Shown one piece after another: positions 25,431-36,131 of a DNA stretch of 64,000 nucleotides. Each line of letters begins with the position of its first letter. The first letter of the stretch is position 1. The stretch comes from an uncultured Nitrospiraceae bacterium (lineage in GTDB: Bacteria > Nitrospirota > Thermodesulfovibrionia > Thermodesulfovibrionales > Dissulfurispiraceae). Both the position numbers and the translations under genes were made by a program. Location of the stretch: NCBI GenBank assembly GCA_903822005.1, contig CAIJNL010000041.1, forward strand, positions 1 to 64,000. The letters are read 5' to 3'. A model generated the notes under the pieces. The model saw only the letters and a program-made list of their open reading frames with translations. It was not told where the DNA came from and did not search any database.

Positions 25431-28061
25431 TTATAATCCTGTCCCGCCCCGCAAGACAGTTCTGATCTTCTCAAAAAGCTCTTTTGGCGAAACCGGCTTA
25501 GGGATAAAATGGACCTCTTCTTCCACTCTTAGTTTGTCGGACAGGAAGTCTCCCGCATAGCCGCTCATCAGTATGATTTCCAGGTCCGGCTTTATGGCCC
25601 TGAGTTCCAGATAGGCATCTCCTCCGCTCTTGCGCGGCATGATAACATCCATCAGCACCAGATGAATGTCATCTTTATGCCGGCGAAATTTAGTGACGGC
25701 GTCGTCTCCATCATATGCTTCTATTACAGTATGCCCGAATCGTTGCAGCATCTGGGTCAGCGCCCGCCTTAAATTGCGGTCATCCTCAACCAGCAGTATT
25801 GTCTCTGTAGCGCCGTCAGGTTTAAAGTGGCCATCGTCTTCCTTTTCTTCCACTTGTATTTCAAGTGCCGGCAGATAAATCTTAAAAGCAGTTCCCTTGC
25901 CTGCCTTGCTGTTTGCGTCGATATATCCTTCGTGCTGCTTTACTATGCCGTAAACCATTGAAAGGCCGAGGCCTGTGCCTTTTCCCACTTCTTTTGTCGT
26001 GAAAAAAGGCTCGAAGGCCCTCTGGAGAGTAGCTGCGTCCATGCCCGCGCCACTGTCGGTAAATGTCATTAATATATAATCGCCACTTCTTCCATAGCTG
26101 TGCATTTTCATGAAGTCTTCGTCCAGGAATATGCGTTCAGTGCTTATGGTCAATTCTCCACCCTTAGGCATTGCGTCCCGGGCATTTGCCGCAAGGTTAA
26201 TAAGTATCTGGGCTATCTGGTTATCGTCCGCATTCACTGTTGTGTTTTGTTCAGTCAGGCGCAGGACAAGATGGATGTCTTCACCGATAGTCCTGGCCAG
26301 GATCTTTTCCGTTTTTTGGATGGTTGTATTCAGATTAATAGGCTTCGGATTACTGTGCTGCTTTCTGCTGAAGGCCAGAAGACTTTGCGTAAGTCCTGCC
26401 GCCCGGTCAGCCGCGTGGAGTATTTCTGAAACATAGGACATAGCCGTATCATTTTCTTTTAACTGCATCTGCAAAAGATATCCGATACTGACAATCACAG
26501 CGAGAATATTGTTGAAATCATGAGCGACGCCGCCTGCAAGCTGGCCGACGGCCTCCATCTTATGGGCCTGGCGAAGCTGGGCTTCAAGATTTTCTTTTTC
26601 TTTCTCGGCCAGCTTGCGTTCCGTTATATCGCGGTTTATAGCGTGATATTCTGTAATATTGCCCTGCTCGTCCCTGATCGCCACAGCGGATGCCAGTATA
26701 TTCAGTACCCTGCCGTCTTTTCTTTTCAGTCGCAGTTCGTAATCCTTAACAAACCCCTGTTCTTCTATTATCTTCTTATATGCAGCCCTTTCTTCCGGAT
26801 CACTATAAAGATCCCTGGCGATGTCCACCGCCAGTATCTCCTCTTTCGATCCATATCCAAAAATCTCAATTCCTGCCGGATTCATGTCGAGATATCTGCC
26901 ATCCGGAGTGGCGACAGAAATGATCTCATTTGTCTCTTCAAAAAACTTGCGGTAGTTTTCTTCTGATATGCTCCGCTTTTGATTCTGGATCTCCAGAGCC
27001 TCCGCCATCCTGTTAAAATCAGCCCCCAGCCTGCTTATTTCATCATCATTGCCGGTCACATCAACCCTGGCTTTCAGGTTGCCTTTTTCGAGCTCGGCGG
27101 TGGCCTTCTGGAGCAACTTCAGGCGGCGCATTACAAAATAATCACTGCCATACCATGCAACTATCAGAGCCAGCAGGGTTATTGCCAGGAGAGCGATCAG
27201 ATTGCTTATGAGCATCCCGTTAATGTTCGAAAAAACCGCTGCCCGTGAGATACCGTACCTGATCAGAATTGTGTCGTCCAGGCCCGGTACGGAAGTATAT
27301 GCATAAATTCGCTCGATGCCGTCCAGCGCTGATGATGCCGTAACAACCCCCTCTTTTAAAGCGCCTATCTTATTTGTGAGTTCAGTATTCGAGGCGCTCT
27401 TTCCGATCCATTTTGACGAGTCGCCACTGCGGTACAGAATTGTCGAGTTGTGATCAACTACCGTCAGCGTAGGCTCATACTCCCGTTGCAAATTTATCTT
27501 TCCGAGTTCGTCCTTTAACCAATCGAGTCCAATGGAGGCAAATACTATAGCCCTTAATTGCTTTTTATTGTCCAGCACCGGCAGGGCCGCGGTTATGGCA
27601 GGTTTGTTATAGACCCGTGTTATCACATATTCGCCAACGGCAAATCCTCTTTTATTGACAGCACTCTTAAAATAAAGCCGGTCCGCGACATTTACGGCCT
27701 TTGCAGTAGCAACTGCGCTGCAGAAAATGTCCCCATTCGGCTTTACCGCGGCAATATTTGCATACATGGGCAGATTTTTTTTGAGCGAAGAAACATACGC
27801 AGTGCATGCGGCATTATCGTACTCTCGTACCGCGGGCAATTCCGCGAGGGAGGTTAGCATCTGGCGCGACCCTGAGAATAGCTGCTCGAGACTGTGTGCT
27901 GCCAGTCGCGCTGTAATGATCGCGTCCCTTTCTATTTCAGAGTCCCGTTTTTTTAGCTGTTCGGAGGATGTATAAAATATGAATATAAGAGCCGGGATGA
28001 CTGCCAATGCAATAAGAAGTATAAGGCGAGTTCGCAGACTTTTTATAGCAATCATGCGCAT
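25431..28061 (-). CDS. hybrid sensor kinase, Cache-HAMP-PAS-HisKA-REC
   Basis: 876 residues. Order: transmembrane helix about 12-30; periplasmic double-Cache sensor about 35-270 (LPMYANIAAVKPNGDIFC, GEYVITRVYNKPAITAALPV, TLTVVDHNSTILYRSGDS); second helix about 280-305; HAMP; PAS about 370-480; HisKA with His514 in GVAHDFNNILAV; ATPase with TDSGAGMD and GTGLGLSMVYGI; C-terminal receiver with Asp805 in LVLMDVIMP. The internal receiver suggests a phosphorelay or feedback role, as in many deltaproteobacterial kinases. It lies 103 bases downstream of the heme oxygenase-like gene on the same strand and could be the output of that sensory block, but the link is only positional. Confidence 0.88.
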   Translation of the reverse strand: MRMIAIKSLRTRLILLIALAVIPALIFIFYTSSEQLKKRDSEIERDAIITARLAAHSLEQLFSGSRQMLTSLAELPAVREYDNAACTAYVSSLKKNLPMYANIAAVKPNGDIFCSAVATAKAVNVADRLYFKSAVNKRGFAVGEYVITRVYNKPAITAALPVLDNKKQLRAIVFASIGLDWLKDELGKINLQREYEPTLTVVDHNSTILYRSGDSSKWIGKSASNTELTNKIGALKEGVVTASSALDGIERIYAYTSVPGLDDTILIRYGISRAAVFSNINGMLISNLIALLAITLLALIVAWYGSDYFVMRRLKLLQKATAELEKGNLKARVDVTGNDDEISRLGADFNRMAEALEIQNQKRSISEENYRKFFEETNEIISVATPDGRYLDMNPAGIEIFGYGSKEEILAVDIARDLYSDPEERAAYKKIIEEQGFVKDYELRLKRKDGRVLNILASAVAIRDEQGNITEYHAINRDITERKLAEKEKENLEAQLRQAHKMEAVGQLAGGVAHDFNNILAVIVSIGYLLQMQLKENDTAMSYVSEILHAADRAAGLTQSLLAFSRKQHSNPKPINLNTTIQKTEKILARTIGEDIHLVLRLTEQNTTVNADDNQIAQILINLAANARDAMPKGGELTISTERIFLDEDFMKMHSYGRSGDYILMTFTDSGAGMDAATLQRAFEPFFTTKEVGKGTGLGLSMVYGIVKQHEGYIDANSKAGKGTAFKIYLPALEIQVEEKEDDGHFKPDGATETILLVEDDRNLRRALTQMLQRFGHTVIEAYDGDDAVTKFRRHKDDIHLVLMDVIMPRKSGGDAYLELRAIKPDLEIILMSGYAGDFLSDKLRVEEEVHFIPKPVSPKELFEKIRTVLRGGTGL

Positions 28062-28164: not shown

Positions 28165-29448
28165 TCAAACCGCAACAGAACGAGCCTGGGCAATTGTTTC
28201 ACGAACGGCGGAACACCATGCAGCATTGAAGCGTTCCGCATCTGTCAGCCAGGCCTCAAGCCCCGGCACAGCCATCTCAATCCCGGACTTTTCATCGCAT
28301 ACAGCAGAAACTATGAGGGAGGCCGTATTTTTCATTCTCCCGCCTAATTCATTGTCAGTCTTGGCAATGAAAGCCTGACATAGCGAGTTGAACACTTCTG
28401 AGCCTATGTGTCTGAGACGTTCTTTCTCAAGCCATGATACCGCGCCCAATAGCTTGTCATATTCATTCTGCTTTTCAGGAACTGTCTTTCCCAGCTCTTT
28501 GTGGAGATAGACAAGCTGGCGCTCCATAGTTATGCGCGGCATGCCCCGACTGGCAAGAACGCCGCTCAGCCAGACAACCTGGGAGATAATGAATGGAGGC
28601 ATGAGTGCTGTTAGTGTTGTCAGCCAGGCCGCATCACTATCCGTGAATCGTTTTCCGCGTTCGCCGTAGCGCTCATCAAAATAGGGGAACTCTTCGCGGC
28701 ATAATTTTCCCGAAGTTATTGCAGCTGCGATTTCCCTTTCATCGGCAGGCACTGCATGATTGCCTGCTTCAGGATTGAGGCTGGTGGATGTAAATGTCAT
28801 ACCGTCAGCCGCCGGCAATGGGAAAAGGCAGGCATGTATATCCTGCAGAAAACCGAAGGCTTCATGCGCCGCGGCAAGTATTCTCCCGGCAACCGCCCTG
28901 TCAGCCGTAAAACTGTTCATAAGATTCACAAAAGTATTCCAGTAATCACTCAGTCTGTTGCCATATCCTTCATAAAACGCTGCGCCGTTTGAGGCGTCAA
29001 CATTGAATGTCCGTTTTATATCAGGCAGGTGAACGCGGTTCCCAAGAACAGTTCCCTGGAGAACGTAGATATAGCCTAAAAGGGAAACCGGATCTTCAAT
29101 GCTTAACAGCCGTATTCTGGCCGCCATGGCATCCGCATGTCTCTTTACAGAAATGATTTCCGGAATCATCTTATAACCAAAACAGGCAATATCGCGAAGA
29201 AGATGAGTGAAGCGGCTCTCTCCGGCATCAAGAACAGCGCGCACGGACGGTTCCGCGCCAGACCTAGTTTCATGCTCAAGCGTGCCGAATGCCGCGGCAA
29301 ATGCCCTGATCTGATTGACATATGAGGCAAGAGGCAATGTCCCGCAGGTGAGGGCGGTAAAAAAAGGAAGTTCCTGTATCTTTTTGTGGAGCGGTTCTGT
29401 TTCCTGTCTGAGACGGAACATCAGAAGCCGGGACTTGTCCTGCTCCAT
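28165..29448 (-). CDS. heme oxygenase-like protein with extra C-terminal domain
   Basis: 427 residues. The first 210 match the bacterial heme oxygenase fold (BphO/HemO type): FRLRQETEPLHKKIQEL with candidate proximal His21, SYVNQIRAFAAAFGTLE, the distal-helix glycine motif GYIYVLQGTVLGNRV and FYEGYGNRLSDYWNTFVN. Such enzymes open heme to biliverdin, the chromophore of bacteriophytochromes; no phytochrome is in the window. The last 200 residues (from about 230) are an all-helical domain I cannot name. It includes WLTTLTALMPPFIISQ, then VVWLSGVLASRGMPRI, and by eye parallels the N-terminal domain of the cobalamin protein two genes upstream. A sensory role using heme or bilin is possible instead of, or beside, catalysis. 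The ribosome-binding site is AGGAGG. Confidence 0.65.
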   Translation of the reverse strand: MEQDKSRLLMFRLRQETEPLHKKIQELPFFTALTCGTLPLASYVNQIRAFAAAFGTLEHETRSGAEPSVRAVLDAGESRFTHLLRDIACFGYKMIPEIISVKRHADAMAARIRLLSIEDPVSLLGYIYVLQGTVLGNRVHLPDIKRTFNVDASNGAAFYEGYGNRLSDYWNTFVNLMNSFTADRAVAGRILAAAHEAFGFLQDIHACLFPLPAADGMTFTSTSLNPEAGNHAVPADEREIAAAITSGKLCREEFPYFDERYGERGKRFTDSDAAWLTTLTALMPPFIISQVVWLSGVLASRGMPRITMERQLVYLHKELGKTVPEKQNEYDKLLGAVSWLEKERLRHIGSEVFNSLCQAFIAKTDNELGGRMKNTASLIVSAVCDEKSGIEMAVPGLEAWLTDAERFNAAWCSAVRETIAQARSVAV

Positions 29449-29513
29449 AGGTCAATGCCTCCTGTCCTGTTCTGCATAAATACAATAATTAATGTCTCTA
29501 TTGTTTTGTCATT

Positions 29514-30146
29514 CTATTCTGCTTTATCCTGATATTGCGGGAAGAGCTTTGTCATGCAATCATCGCAAATGCCGTGACTGAATACTGCTTCGGAATGTGT
29601 AGTGATGTATTCCTCCAGTTGGTTCCAATATCCTTTATCGTCTCGTATTTTCTTGCAATACGAGCAGATCGGCAGCAGACCCTTGAGGACTTTGATCTCT
29701 TCCATTGCCTGTTGAAGGGCAACGTTTTTCCTGTGTAATTCCCGGGTAAGGTTGCTCAGTTCATTGTTCATCACTGTCATATGTTTCATTACAACCGCTT
29801 CAGTCGCCATGATCTGCTCGCTGAAGACAAGCATGTTGTCTTTGCGGTATACCACCCTGCATACAAGCATATGAGAAGACTGCCTGTCATTTGAAAAAAT
29901 AAGCTTCATGCCGTCAATTATCTTGCCTCCGGCTTCGTCGAGCAGTTTCACGCTTTCCGGAGTCAACAACTCTCTGATGTTCAGGCCCTCCACCGGCAAC
30001 TGTCTGCCGAACATTTCTTTAAAGGCATTGTTCACCCGGACAATAGACCCATCGTCTCCAAGTATAAACATGATAATCGTAGTTTGCCTCGAAAGAGAAC
30101 TGATGAGGCCCTCTGCATAATCCCTGAGAATCCCGTTATCTTCCAT
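29514..30146 (-). CDS. PAS-domain protein with C-terminal cysteine motif
   Basis: 210 residues with no transmembrane helix. A PAS fold occupies about 15-110 (TTIIMFILGDDGSIVRVNNA, FKEMFGRQLPVEGLNIRELL). A helical linker follows with coiled-coil heptads (about 120-160). The end has the conserved tail LPICSYCKKIRDDKGYWNQL and HGICDDCMTKLFP, two CxxC pairs often attached to PAS, REC or kinase proteins in deltaproteobacteria-like genomes and of unknown role (possible zinc or redox site). No output domain is present, so it probably works by protein contact. It starts nine bases after the cobalamin gene stop with AGAGGAT as ribosome-binding site. Confidence 0.75.
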   Translation of the reverse strand: MEDNGILRDYAEGLISSLSRQTTIIMFILGDDGSIVRVNNAFKEMFGRQLPVEGLNIRELLTPESVKLLDEAGGKIIDGMKLIFSNDRQSSHMLVCRVVYRKDNMLVFSEQIMATEAVVMKHMTVMNNELSNLTRELHRKNVALQQAMEEIKVLKGLLPICSYCKKIRDDKGYWNQLEEYITTHSEAVFSHGICDDCMTKLFPQYQDKAE

Positions 30147-30155
30147 GATATCCTC

Positions 30156-31277
30156 TCATGAGCAAAGCCGCTGTGCCGCAGTAACTGCTTCCCGAGCGTT
30201 TCCTGCAGTCGCATCAGCGCCAATTTCAGACCAAATATCCGGAACGGTCATGAAAACCCTGCCTCCCACCATGATTTTTATCCCCCTCAATGATTCTTTG
30301 TTCCGGATAGCAGTTATGAGTTTCTTGACCTCATCCAGATTAAACGGCATGATCACTGAGATCGCGAGCAATTGAGGCCTGAAGTCCTCCAGCAGTTCCA
30401 TCAGATCCTCCATAGGGGTGTTAGCGCCAAGATACCTTACCTGCCAACCATCCAGTTCAAGCAGGTCGGATACCATCCAGGCGCCGAGTTCATGAAGCTC
30501 GTTCGGGGCAGCCGTTATTACTGCCCGGCCCTTTGTAGGTTTTACAGCGACAATTGCTGAGTATAGCTGTGACATCACCCGACTCACTATCGAAGAGGCG
30601 AGATGTTCCTGAGCTACAGATATTTTCCCTTTCTCCCAGAGCCTGCCAATTTCATACATGGATGGCTGTATCACGCACAGGAGAAAGAATTCGAAATCTT
30701 CTGCATTTTTCACTTTGCGTGCCATTGCAAGGGCTTCCGTATGGTCGGCGCCAAGCAAGGCATCAAGAAACCTGCTTTGCTGCCCATCAGTAATCGTAAA
30801 CTCATTCACTGGAGCGTCAGAAGACATGTCTGCTATAAGGACCAGTCTTTCATGTGCCGTTAATATCCACCTGTAGACCTCAAGAATCAGGGGTTGATGC
30901 TCCGTGGCAAGTTGCCTCTCAACAGCAGCTATCCAGGCCCCGATTTCAATCGGGAAATAACCATATGAAAATCCGTGCGCCCGGTATATGCGATAGTCCC
31001 AGGAAATATTCTTCACAAGAAGCTCGAACTGGTTAAGTAACAAGACAGTAGCCATAAAAGACGCAAAGTTCTTATGACGCGTTGTCATTATCTCCATAGG
31101 ATTCCCGCCGGTAAGTGAAGTCAAATCCTCTCGGGCAGACATGGCAGCAGTTACTTCGTTGACAAGAGATTGCTTTATCGAGGAGAAGGCCTCTGCAGCC
31201 TCGGCAGAAACGGGCTTCAGCTTTTTAGCTTCGGCAATGAGTCGATAAAGATCTGCAGGCATGCTGTTTTCAGTCAT
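30156..31277 (-). CDS. cobalamin-binding sensor protein with CarH-type signature
   Basis: Starting at ATG 31277 (GGGGGAG six bases before; the frame extends seven codons more) this gives 373 residues. The C-terminal two-thirds is a B12-binding module: a four-helix cap with W214-x9-E224-H225 (WEKGKISVAQEH), the signature of AdoCbl photoreceptors such as CarH, then a Rossmann part with the lower-ligand His262 in ELHELGAWM and VGGRVF near the end. No MerR helix-turn-helix, methyltransferase or mutase domain is present. The N-terminal 150 residues are helical and unfamiliar (FMATVLLLNQFELLVKNISW, RAHGFSYGYFPIE). This organisation resembles AerR/CarH-like signalling proteins. It heads a run with a PAS protein and a heme oxygenase-like protein. 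Confidence 0.75.
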   Translation of the reverse strand: MTENSMPADLYRLIAEAKKLKPVSAEAAEAFSSIKQSLVNEVTAAMSAREDLTSLTGGNPMEIMTTRHKNFASFMATVLLLNQFELLVKNISWDYRIYRAHGFSYGYFPIEIGAWIAAVERQLATEHQPLILEVYRWILTAHERLVLIADMSSDAPVNEFTITDGQQSRFLDALLGADHTEALAMARKVKNAEDFEFFLLCVIQPSMYEIGRLWEKGKISVAQEHLASSIVSRVMSQLYSAIVAVKPTKGRAVITAAPNELHELGAWMVSDLLELDGWQVRYLGANTPMEDLMELLEDFRPQLLAISVIMPFNLDEVKKLITAIRNKESLRGIKIMVGGRVFMTVPDIWSEIGADATAGNAREAVTAAQRLCS

Positions 31278-31405
31278 CTGAAGCTCCCCCGGAAACATTT
31301 GGCAAACTATTAGTATAGTATAAGTGATTTCGTTTGATTTAAGAATTGTGTTGAAGCCCCGGGAACAAAACAGAATCCTTATCGCTGCTTTTCAGCACGG
31401 ATATT

Positions 31406-31491: not shown

Positions 31492-33168
31492 TTATGCGAA
31501 CTGGGTAAGCATACCCGCCGTTATTTTCGGCAGCATATCCGGGAATATCCAGGCCTGCAGTAAAATGATGGCCATAACGAACAGCAGGAGATATATCGAA
31601 TATTTGAGGGTCAGTCTTAAAATATCTGATTCATGCCCGACAAGGCCGACAGCGGCGCATGCAACAGCAATGGACTGGGGAGAGATCAGCTTGCCTATGT
31701 CAGCTCCGAACAGGTTTGCCGAGATCGTCAGCATCGGATTGAATCCGAGCTGGGTGGCGGTGACCTGCTGAAGTTTGCCGAATAGTGCGGCCGAAGAAGT
31801 GACCGATCCGGTCAGGAATACGCCCAGGTAGCCGATAATAGGAGAGACGACCGGGAAGAACATTCCTGTGTAAGTCGCAAAGGCCAGTCCGAGAGTGTAA
31901 GACATGCCCGAATAGTTGGCCAGGAAGCCGATGCCGAGGACCGAAGCAAGGGTGATGAGAGAATACATCAGCTGCCTGAAGGTCTTGGCCATGACCCTTA
32001 CGCCTGTTGCGGGGCTAAGCTTCAGGACAATCATCGACAATAAGCCCGAAATGAGCATCGCCGTGCCGGGAGCGCCGAAGTAATCCCAGCGGTAGCTGGC
32101 AGCGTACTTGGCGGGTGCGGCTACGATGGGGGCCGTGCGGAATACGACTCCGTCCAGACCGGGCCAGGAAGGAATCATCATAAACCATTTAAGGTCATTG
32201 GCAACGAATTTCTTGAAAGCCGGCATGCCCCATACACCCATGACGATCATGAGAATAAGGAACGGAGACCAGGCCTTGAAAATCTGGCCAAAGGAGTACT
32301 GGACTGCAGTGTCCTGTGCGGCATCAGTATCGTTAGGGAAGCGCCATATGGTGGCGGGATGCCAGACTTTCAGGAACACGCCCAGGCAGAGCATGGACAC
32401 GAAAGACGACAGAATGGCAGGCAGTTCCGGGCCCATGTACTGGCTTACAATCCAGTTGGTGATGGCATAGCTGATACCTGCCACAAGCGCCGCAGGTGCT
32501 ACGCCCATGATATTCCTCCATCCGGCCACAACACCCAGCATAAAGAAGGGAATTACTATAGCCAGTATGGTCATATCCAGACCGATGGCCTGAGATACGA
32601 TCAGGGGATTAAGTTCGGTTACCGTGGCCATCATAATGGTCGGAGTGCCAACCGGGCCGAAAGGAACTGGCGGTGTATTTGCCACAAGACAGATAACGGC
32701 TGCCGGCAGCGCCGGGAATCCAAGGCCTATAAGCATGGCCGCCGCAACGGCGACAGGAGCGCCCTGGCCTGACACACCTTCCATGAAAGCCGAAAAACAG
32801 AAAGCAACCAGAAGGGCCTGCAGTCTGCGGTCGGTCGACAATGAGGAAATGGAACTCTTTATGATTTCAAACTGACCTGATTCTACTGTCAGGTTGTAAA
32901 GGAAAACGGCTGTGAGAATGATCCAGCCTATCGGGAACAGGCCGGTGAACATTCCGAGTACCGAGGCGGACACCGCTGCCGTGATCGGCATATCGTAAGC
33001 TACAACCACAATCACAATCGTGAGCAGCAAGGTCGATACGCCTGCAATATGCCCCTTCATTCTCTGTACGGCCAGTGCCCAGAAAAGATAGAAAATAGGA
33101 ATTGATACCACGAGGGCGGTGAGTCCAAGGCTGCCGCCAAAAGCTGAGTAGTTATGTAACCATTGCAT
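31492..33168 (-). CDS. L-lactate permease family transporter
   Basis: A 558-residue polytopic protein (about 13-14 hydrophobic helices) of the LctP/LldP family (PF02652), which imports lactate or glycolate with protons. Family landmarks are VSGQGAPVAVAAAMLIGLG, NTPPVPFGPVGTPTIMM and near the end SSAALFGKLQQVTATQLG with NLFGADIGKLISPQSIAVAC. The length is normal. GAGAGG lies 11 bases before ATG 33168. No lactate dehydrogenase (lldD or lutABC) or LldR regulator is adjacent, so the substrate is assigned by family only. Confidence 0.9.
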   Translation of the reverse strand: MQWLHNYSAFGGSLGLTALVVSIPIFYLFWALAVQRMKGHIAGVSTLLLTIVIVVVAYDMPITAAVSASVLGMFTGLFPIGWIILTAVFLYNLTVESGQFEIIKSSISSLSTDRRLQALLVAFCFSAFMEGVSGQGAPVAVAAAMLIGLGFPALPAAVICLVANTPPVPFGPVGTPTIMMATVTELNPLIVSQAIGLDMTILAIVIPFFMLGVVAGWRNIMGVAPAALVAGISYAITNWIVSQYMGPELPAILSSFVSMLCLGVFLKVWHPATIWRFPNDTDAAQDTAVQYSFGQIFKAWSPFLILMIVMGVWGMPAFKKFVANDLKWFMMIPSWPGLDGVVFRTAPIVAAPAKYAASYRWDYFGAPGTAMLISGLLSMIVLKLSPATGVRVMAKTFRQLMYSLITLASVLGIGFLANYSGMSYTLGLAFATYTGMFFPVVSPIIGYLGVFLTGSVTSSAALFGKLQQVTATQLGFNPMLTISANLFGADIGKLISPQSIAVACAAVGLVGHESDILRLTLKYSIYLLLFVMAIILLQAWIFPDMLPKITAGMLTQFA

Positions 33169-33467: not shown

Positions 33468-36131
33468 TTATGAACCGTCATCAATGCCGGGCTGCTTTGA
33501 GGCTTCAATCCTGTAATGCTCAAGGTTCTTTTTCACAAACTCTATCTCGTCTTTTTTTGCAGGCAGTTTTTTCATCAGCTTCTCGTTCAGCACGTCAGCG
33601 AATATTTTTGAATAGAGAGGGCCGGGCGGCAGTCCCAGAGCCTTCAGGTCCTCACCCTTGATAAGCGGTCTTATTGACCGTGACTCAAGAAGGTACTGCG
33701 ATATCGCCTTCTTTTTTTCATTGTCCTGCATCGACGCCATGCTGAAGAGCATGTCTTCAATTCCGCATTCCGAGAGCAGATGGTAATTCATCACCGGGTT
33801 GCCCGGCAGCAGGCCGCGTGAAATTTTCTGGGCAGTCTGGAGCCCTTTCAGTATGAGATTGCGGGTCTTCTCCGCGACCGCAAGGCGGCTCAGGGCGGCT
33901 TCGCGCTCATCCCTGCCGAGCCCTGACAAAAGCGCCATTATGTAGAGCAGCCCCTTGTCGCGCTTCTCTTCAAGAAAGAGGAGATCGAACCAGGATATGG
34001 TGTCATGCATCGACTGCATTACCGCCTCAAGCTCTGATGAGAACGCGAGCTTCGGATGGATCACCTTCAGCAGGTCATAAGTCCCCAGTCGCCTGATAGA
34101 CTTGATCGGGTCCGTTTCACTGAATATCAGTGCGAGCTCGTCATACAGCCGGGTGCCTGCCAGCTTGTCGAATATATTCATCCTGACAGCGAGCTTTATA
34201 AGGTTTTCAGTATGTTTTGTGAGCTTGAAGCCGAAGCGTTCAGAGAAGCGGATGGCCCTGAAGGCGCGGGTCGGGTCCTCCACAAAACTGAGGTTATGCA
34301 GCACCCTGATAGTTTTGTCCTTCAGGTCGCGCTGGCCCCCGAAGAAATCGAGCAGCAGTCCGAAATCTTTTTTGTTGATCCCGATGGCAAGAGTATTGAT
34401 GGTAAAGTCCCTGCGCTTCAGGTCTCTCTTGAGCGAAGAGGTCTCAACCTTTGGCAATGCTGCCGGGGACTCATAATATTCGGTACGCGCCGTGGCCACG
34501 TCGAGTTTGAAGGCATCTTTTTTTACGACGGCCGTGCCAAAGGACTGGTGGACAGTGACTTTGGCCCCAAGTATCTCTCCGAGCTTTTTAGCAAAAGCGA
34601 TGCCGTCCCCTTCGATTACGATATCTATGTCGAGATTCCGTTCTCTCCTTATTATGTCGCGCACGCAGCCGCCTACAAGATAAGCCCCGTATCCGAGATC
34701 GTCCGCGATGCCGCCGGCCATTACCAGGAAATCGTAAAGGCTTTCAGGCAGGGTCTCTTTAAGAAGCGGCGTCACGTTCCTGCCGAACCCCTGGAAACCT
34801 TCGCCGGTCATGGCGCGGTCAGGCAGTATCCTGCTTTTTCTGAGCACATCCTCATAGAGCGACCTGAGTATGTCGGTGCGTGTTATCGCGCCCACAATCT
34901 TCTTTCCCTCCATTACGGCAACGAACCTCTGGTTATGCTCTACCATCGTCTTCTCGATCTCGGTAAGGTATGTGCCGGGCAATACGGTGACAGCGTCAGT
35001 AGTGGCAAAGTCGATGCAACGGCTCTTTCCGAATCCGTGAAAGAGAGCCTTTCGTATAACCTCGCGTGTGATAATGCCCTTATACCCGCTGTCCTTGAGC
35101 ACGGGAAGCACATTTACACCGTAGCGGGTCATCATGTCCTCTGCTTCTTTTATGGCGCTATCTCCGTTTATAACCACCACGGGAGTCGTCATAACATCCG
35201 AAGCGAGTTTCATTGGTCTGATATGCCTGTTGAGCGACTCGATAAGGCGTTCTTCGGCTATGTCGAAAGGCACGTCTTTTATGGTTGCTGATGCAGCTGT
35301 AGAATGTCCTCCTCCGCCGAAATCAGAAAGCAGCAGCCCCACATTCAGCTCAGGCACCTTGCTCCTGGCAACCAGCAGCAACTTGTCGGCCATGCCTATC
35401 AGCATGATCAGGGCGTCCATATCGAGGTCTTCCATGTCCATGATCCTGTGGGCGAGAGGCGATACATCATTGAAGCTTTCAATGGAGGCTTTTGCGATGC
35501 GGATGCGCACTCCGTTTATGACCACCTCTTTAAGAGACTGAATGAGTTCGTTAAGCAGTGCCACGGATTCCATGCTCATCTCATCCTTCAGGAAGTCCGA
35601 GACAATGTTCAGGTTGGCGCCATGCTTCAGGAGGAAAGCGGCAGCCATAAGGTCCTTTGGAGTAGTGGAGGTGAAGACAAGGGAACCGGTCTCTTCGTAT
35701 ATGCCCAGGCAGAGAAGGGTCGCCTCCATGGGCGTGATCGGAAATTTTTTTTTCTGGATAATTTCCGCGAATATGCTGGAGGCCGCACCGACATTGTCCA
35801 GGACCATTACAGCACCCTTTATATCATCCGGAGTTACGGGATGATGATCGTAGATGTGGACCGCAACCCCAGGCCTTGAAAGGAGTTCCTTCAGAGGGCC
35901 TATCCTGTCGGGATGTTTGGTATCAACGATGATAAGTCTCGAAACTTTATCGAGAGGGACATCTTTGAGCCTGGTGATTTCCGCGGGGTTGAATACATCG
36001 ATGAAATCCCTCACGCGTTTTTCGAGGGAGCCGGGGAAGGCAATGACGGCGCCGGGATAAAGCTTCCTGGCTGCAATGGCACACGCCAGAGAATCGAAGT
36101 CGGCACTGAGATGAGAGGTAATAAGGTCCAT
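33468..36131 (-). CDS. DHH-CBS-tRNA nucleotidyltransferase fusion
   Basis: 887 residues in three blocks. Residues 1-300 form a DHH/DHHA1 phosphoesterase-like part (SHLSADFDSLACAI, IVDTKHPDR, YDHHPVT, then GGGHSTAASATI). About 310-430 is a CBS pair (SDVMTTPVVVI, GVNVLPVLKD). About 460-880 is a class II poly(A)-polymerase/tRNA nucleotidyltransferase with YLVGGCVRDII, the catalytic DIDIVIEGDG, RRDFTINTLAIG and DPTRAFRAIRFSERFGF. Such fusions are known in Aquifex/deltaproteobacteria-like lineages, where the A-adding and CC-adding steps of CCA synthesis may be split between two enzymes. Which activity this one has cannot be told. It is divergent from the LytS-like gene. Confidence 0.9.
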   Translation of the reverse strand: MDLITSHLSADFDSLACAIAARKLYPGAVIAFPGSLEKRVRDFIDVFNPAEITRLKDVPLDKVSRLIIVDTKHPDRIGPLKELLSRPGVAVHIYDHHPVTPDDIKGAVMVLDNVGAASSIFAEIIQKKKFPITPMEATLLCLGIYEETGSLVFTSTTPKDLMAAAFLLKHGANLNIVSDFLKDEMSMESVALLNELIQSLKEVVINGVRIRIAKASIESFNDVSPLAHRIMDMEDLDMDALIMLIGMADKLLLVARSKVPELNVGLLLSDFGGGGHSTAASATIKDVPFDIAEERLIESLNRHIRPMKLASDVMTTPVVVINGDSAIKEAEDMMTRYGVNVLPVLKDSGYKGIITREVIRKALFHGFGKSRCIDFATTDAVTVLPGTYLTEIEKTMVEHNQRFVAVMEGKKIVGAITRTDILRSLYEDVLRKSRILPDRAMTGEGFQGFGRNVTPLLKETLPESLYDFLVMAGGIADDLGYGAYLVGGCVRDIIRRERNLDIDIVIEGDGIAFAKKLGEILGAKVTVHQSFGTAVVKKDAFKLDVATARTEYYESPAALPKVETSSLKRDLKRRDFTINTLAIGINKKDFGLLLDFFGGQRDLKDKTIRVLHNLSFVEDPTRAFRAIRFSERFGFKLTKHTENLIKLAVRMNIFDKLAGTRLYDELALIFSETDPIKSIRRLGTYDLLKVIHPKLAFSSELEAVMQSMHDTISWFDLLFLEEKRDKGLLYIMALLSGLGRDEREAALSRLAVAEKTRNLILKGLQTAQKISRGLLPGNPVMNYHLLSECGIEDMLFSMASMQDNEKKKAISQYLLESRSIRPLIKGEDLKALGLPPGPLYSKIFADVLNEKLMKKLPAKKDEIEFVKKNLEHYRIEASKQPGIDDGS

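Follow-up and report, generated by a model that had tools for sequence, protein, structure and literature searches.

Gene layout of the locus

The window, meaning the whole stretch of 64,000 nucleotides that was analysed, carries three closely spaced genes on the minus strand. They encode a cobalamin (B12) protein in an open reading frame at 30156-31298, a PAS protein at 29514-30146 and a heme oxygenase (HO) protein at 28165-29448. The preliminary description had placed these genes 9 and 65 bases apart, and all of the reading frames and gaps were found where it had put them (9 bases between the B12 and PAS genes, 65 between the PAS and HO genes). The B12 protein has an alternative upstream start at 31298, which yields 380 amino acids; the start at 31277 is preferable, since a Shine-Dalgarno sequence, GGGGGAG (31284-31290), lies 6 bases 5' of its ATG. 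The genes and their features are as follows.

30156 to 31277, minus strand: gene of the putative B12-binding photoreceptor, 373 aa (Pfam, NCBIfam and PDB matches)
30825 to 31247, minus strand: predicted divergent photoglobin domain, residues ~18-158 in the 380-aa frame (structure model and family profile)
30159 to 30797, minus strand: cobalamin-binding domain with W221-x9-E231-H232 and the lower-ligand His269 (motif and fold match)
29514 to 30146, minus strand: PAS protein with a coiled linker, 210 aa
29517 to 29696, minus strand: C-terminal CxxC...CxxC module, predicted to be zinc-ribbon-like (shared with receiver-domain proteins)
28165 to 29448, minus strand: HO-photoglobin fusion protein, 427 aa
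28834 to 29427, minus strand: heme oxygenase domain with proximal His21 and distal Gly132 and Gly136 (PF01126, 59.3 bits)
28411 to 28761, minus strand: C-terminal photoglobin with Asp272 and Trp293, after which a conserved helical tail runs to residue 427 (VIA-align and hhalign)

A hybrid histidine kinase (25431-28061) of dCache-HAMP-PAS composition, with an extracellular dCache sensor (Pfam), begins 103 bases past the HO gene, at the distance first reported. It was rejected as a core part of the unit because its place next to these genes is not conserved among the relatives examined. A lactate permease gene lies at 31492-33168 and, upstream of it, positions 33468-36131 encode a large protein that, by eye, resembles a single chain of DHH, CBS and tRNA nucleotidyltransferase parts. 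Rfam, tRNA and promoter scans gave nothing useful.

The B12 protein and the PAS protein

Pfam detected two domains in the B12 protein, B12-binding_2 (2.7e-14) and B12-binding (1.7e-22). The light-type motif and the lower ligand, previously numbered W214-x9-E224-H225 and His262, are W221-x9-E231-H232 and His269 (motif E267-L-H269) in the 380-aa frame. The W-x9-EH signature has been described as the mark of light-responsive AdoCbl domains (PMC11796333), and the protein has both this signature and the E/DxH lower ligand that characterise the AdoCbl domain of photocobilins. The earlier label of a CarH-type sensor without a DNA-binding domain was borne out in part. The AdoCbl light-sensor motif (CarH) and the domain fold are shared with CarH/LitR and AerR, and no MerR-type DNA-binding domain was found by Pfam or NCBIfam, a difference from those families; nevertheless, the closest relatives are photocobilins, not CarH or AerR. 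The score against the NCBIfam CarH equivalog was 79.7 bits, where 400 are required, and the best PDB sequence matches were those of the photocobilin SasPcob (8j2w/8j2x), ahead of CarH. When the structure model of the protein (pLDDT 85.6) was compared by VIA-align, its B12 domain matched best the photocobilin structures 8j2y (Z 24.0, 2.3 A, 208 residues) and 8j2w (Z 23.7, 2.4 A, 207 residues), and the top Foldseek matches of the model were a MerR-family B12 domain and SasPcob.

Two photoglobin-type domains had been overlooked in the preliminary description, one at the start of the B12 protein and the other in the second half of the HO protein. In the former, the N-terminal ~160 residues were modelled with high confidence as all-helical. 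This domain has no PDB sequence match, and it is missing from the structure-match lists of the protein because the B12 domain fills them. Nevertheless, its family profile matched a set of N-terminal photoglobins, the globin-like domains of B12 proteins from other Nitrospirota and from Desulfosoma, with an hhalign score of 35.6 (E 2.5e-5), against a maximum of 16.7 in 60 column shuffles. The same set matched the SasPcob globin in a profile comparison (E 2.5e-7), and an HMMER search with it found SasPcob and phycocyanin. Through this chain of shuffle-controlled profile comparisons, from the N-terminus to the N-terminal photoglobins and from these to the SasPcob globin, the window protein thus appears to be a photoglobin fused to an AdoCbl domain, that is, a globin-first photocobilin. 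Among photocobilins, both orders have been reported, with the B12 domain first or last (PMC10979010).

The B12-linked globin keeps a tryptophan, Trp100, and has Arg74 at the position of the biliverdin-contacting Asp270 of SasPcob, a position held by Asn in most close relatives of the window protein. This substitution makes bilin binding by this globin doubtful. A further photocobilin, AbPcob, has His at the same site, binds biliverdin weakly and is still named a photocobilin (PMC10979010).

The middle protein gave a weak PAS match (3.5e-5, Pfam) and has two CxxC pairs, as initially described; the accompanying statement that it has no output domain is probably wrong. Its C-terminal tail, CxxC...HSEAxFSHGIC..C, is covered by no Pfam match in the window PAS protein and occurs in eight copies in the window genome (G000, on contigs that include C36, C29, C6, C37, C2 and C25), carried by PAS, receiver and other sensor proteins. 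The tail is a widespread unnamed signalling module. Its presence on response regulators had also gone unnoticed; one relative encodes a Response_reg domain with this CxxC tail, and in several fusion-related loci a separate receiver protein with the tail adjoins a PAS kinase. These receiver proteins with an identical tail beside a PAS kinase suggest that the tail is probably the output module of the PAS protein. A homologous PAS module lies 3' of the B12 gene in most relatives, where the output is a histidine kinase, GGDEF or the CxxC tail. The exact window arrangement, globin-B12 and then PAS-CxxC, was also found in four other loci (L060, L154, L162 and L170).

The HO protein and its C-terminal photoglobin

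Residues 11-202 of the HO protein matched the Pfam Heme_oxygenase family (PF01126) at 6.1e-16, the 59.3 bits exceeding the curated cut-off of 23. The proximal His21 is kept in 33/33 fusions, and the distal-helix residues Gly132 and Gly136 in 34/34. To judge from this match and these residues, the HO domain is intact-looking. The protein is therefore a genuine member of the HO family, as had been proposed, although it is not a plain HO, since it is fused to a photoglobin. The HO domain was poorly modelled (pLDDT 30-45), and Foldseek returned no significant match for the HO protein model (best E 0.24), because the HO half had been modelled from three sequences.

The sole informative structure search of this protein was that performed by VIA-align on its well-modelled C-terminal half, a region in which, from residue ~215 onward, no Pfam family matched. 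SasPcob (8j2x) ranked first with Z 9.5 (2.4 A, 110 residues), followed by a Gloeobacter phycobilisome subunit with Z 7.4; haemoglobins reached about 4. Furthermore, the domain matched the N-terminal photoglobins with an hhalign score of 44 (E 1.8e-6), the maximum in 50 column shuffles being 18.3. The direct match to SasPcob alone was weak (HMMER E ~1; hhalign 27%), and when the profiles of the HO globin and the B12-linked globin were compared with each other, the result did not rise above noise (E 0.3); other photoglobins thus provide the only connection between the operon's two globins.

In the profile alignment, Asp272 and Trp293 of the HO globin fall on Asp270 and Trp296 of SasPcob, the equivalence of the Asp requiring a gap; both SasPcob residues contact biliverdin (PMC10979010). 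Asp272, Trp275 and Trp293 are invariant in 34/34 fusions. The domain hence combines a globin fold nearest to those of photocobilins and phycobiliproteins with the pocket Asp and Trp. The cysteine site of BBAG-2 (bilin biosynthesis-associated globin), RGMC, is absent and reads RGMP in the fusions, with Pro304 in 34/34. It could be argued that the C-terminal domain is a bilin-free, globin-like structural element for docking to the B12 protein only, which would fit both the weak direct match to bilin-binding globins and the absence of the phycobiliprotein and BBAG-2 cysteine. We regard this as very improbable, given that SasPcob also lacks the phycobiliprotein-type Cys and yet binds biliverdin (PMC10979010), that the three pocket residues are invariant and that the domain is fused to a putative ligand-making enzyme.

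Distribution, history and proposed function

When the B12 protein alone served as the query, a scan of the genome collection returned nothing. When 84,980 species genomes were scanned with an alignment of the HO fusions, a query that contained no B12 sequence, 79 loci were obtained. Together with the relatives' set, this gave about 37 distinct loci with both HO and photoglobin domains. To judge by record titles and kinship, the hosts belong to about ten phyla, which comprise Thermodesulfobacteriota, Nitrospirota, Pseudomonadota, Acidobacteriota, Chloroflexota, Spirochaetota, Bdellovibrionota, Omnitrophota, Hydrogenedentes and SAR324. A light-type B12 gene was located at most 5 kb from the fusion in 13/20 loci with at least 3 kb of flank on both sides, as against 0/25 HO-only loci of the same scan (Fisher p 1e-6, the loci not being fully independent). 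The other 7/20 fusion loci had no nearby B12 gene. A related B12 gene, usually with the light motif and an adjoining PAS gene, was found in 14/16 fusion genomes searched, nearly all of which had been picked for having no B12 gene nearby. Nearly all intact B12 genes adjoining fusions have the light-type motif. The HO, B12 and PAS genes therefore share a neighbourhood across relatives, the conserved co-occurrence for which the preliminary description had proposed a search.

On the observed gene order, domain composition, conserved residues and recurrence across phyla, the three genes probably encode a photocobilin-type light sensor whose bilin-making enzyme also carries a bilin-holding globin. 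Heme would be converted to biliverdin by the HO domain, and the fused photoglobin would hold the biliverdin via the conserved pair Asp272 and Trp293. The fusion protein might then dock on the AdoCbl-loaded B12 protein, as the globin of SasPcob does on the B12 domain of the same chain, and the bilin, placed in trans near the corrin, would widen the green-light sensitivity towards red. Light is expected to break the Co-C bond with loss of adenosine, upon which the B12 dimer would rearrange. This change would be received by the adjacent PAS protein with its CxxC tail, which in relatives is replaced by a kinase or GGDEF. Counted against this reading are Arg74 in place of the key Asp, the weak similarity of the HO globin to SasPcob, the gap needed for the Asp equivalence, the low pLDDT of the HO domain and the seven loci without a B12 gene.

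Many of the B12 proteins adjoining fusions have no globin, so that the HO-borne globin, the only one available, may be regarded as their natural partner. This argues against an alternative that we hold to be unlikely, in which the HO makes biliverdin, the fused globin is a carrier that hands this bilin to a photocobilin globin, and the B12 protein is the sole light sensor. Most of the adjoining B12 proteins have no globin to receive the bilin, and the B12-linked globin of the window lacks the biliverdin-binding Asp. The alternative agrees better with the window, L060 and a few other loci, where both proteins carry a globin, and with the frequent location of the fusion on a different contig from the B12 gene.

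Two further arrangements were observed. In L052 (4608-6429), the gene order begins with a plain, globin-free HO of 219 aa, immediately followed by a globin-B12 protein and a PAS histidine kinase; this is the unfused form of the HO/globin-B12/PAS association. In L049 (6264-7742), and also in L050, L051 and L059, a photocobilin is followed by a protein with ABM (IsdG/HmoA-like), PAS and histidine kinase parts, which is possibly a second, unrelated coupling of a heme-degrading-type domain to a photocobilin. These four loci come from genomes of the same phylum, and Pfam was run on L049.

Among 60 relatives of the window genome, PF01126 was encoded in three, in all of them as the HO-photoglobin fusion, and the fusion is also the one HO of the window genome. 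In the tree, the three same-family fusions fell in three places, and that of the window was placed inside a Desulfuromonadales/Geobacteraceae group (100/99 support). The local G+C is 0.48, compared with 0.52 in the surroundings. Horizontal spread of the fusion is likely on these sequence data, and mis-binned contigs may be an alternative cause of the scattered placement. A same-family genome also contains a probable decayed copy (G005:C50:3499-3737), in the form of fragments that share 60-70% identity with the C-terminal end of the window's B12 protein and include an internal stop codon.

The window genome encodes a cobalamin adenosyltransferase, as well as cytochrome bd and heme-copper oxidases. 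The presence of both terminal oxidase types makes an oxygen supply for the HO plausible in this host. According to another explanation, heme is what the fusion senses or degrades, AdoCbl or redox state is what the B12 protein responds to, and light is incidental in mostly dark-living lineages. In favour of it, many of the hosts live in sediments or bioreactors and some belong to usually anaerobic groups, where HO needs O2; the CxxC tail could also be redox-active. Such sensing of heme, oxygen or redox state is nevertheless improbable in view of the conserved W-x9-EH light signature (PMC11796333) and of the bilin-pocket Asp/Trp pair, which is invariant in the HO globin.

BphO-type HOs, paired with a bacteriophytochrome, feed a photoreceptor. 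The window HO keeps the same proximal His and distal Gly residues and may likewise feed a photoreceptor; it differs in bearing its own bilin-type globin, and a genome search found no phytochrome in its host.

The coupling of a B12 sensor with an HO-like protein, initially presented as one not recognised, has precedents in print. The light response of photocobilins, which bind both AdoCbl and biliverdin, spans the visible range (PMC10979010), and HO has been noted in association with bilin-binding globins and B12-binding proteins (PMC10151467). The photocobilins (SasPcob 8J2W/8J2X and AbDPcob 8J2Y) resemble the window system in their light-type AdoCbl domain and photoglobin and are the top sequence and fold matches of its B12 protein; in the window, by contrast, the biliverdin Asp is missing from the globin on the B12 protein and present in a second photoglobin, the one fused to HO, and in many relatives the B12 protein is globin-free and the sole globin is on the HO. 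HO is not mentioned in the main text of the photocobilin paper (PMC10979010). BBAG-2, which binds biliverdin, differs in that the described clusters encode separate proteins, in its RGMC with Cys instead of RGMP and, for BBAG-2 proper, in its link to pre-2, a bilin reductase. The main text of the BBAG-2 paper (PMC10151467), the only one in the searched literature with both photoglobin and heme oxygenase, describes no HO fusion. No report of an HO-photoglobin fusion was found in that literature, the original photoglobin paper (Schneider 2022) lying outside it. The candidate novelty may hence be the fusion itself, with priority subject to Schneider 2022.

Tentatively, and with chances that we put slightly below even, the HO-photoglobin may be a photoreceptor subunit that supplies itself with chromophore, producing biliverdin and retaining it in the fused globin, and that, together with an AdoCbl protein in trans, forms a split photocobilin, as part of a widespread HO-globin/B12/PAS module outside photosynthetic bacteria. 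If so, chromophore synthesis and binding would reside in one polypeptide, a two-colour B12/bilin receptor would be assembled from separate parts, and there would be a dedicated source of biliverdin, left unidentified in the photocobilin paper (PMC10979010). The co-encoded proteins would also offer a ready-made red/green optogenetic set, and photocobilin-like sensing would reach Nitrospirota, Thermodesulfobacteriota and several further phyla that are not noted for responding to light.
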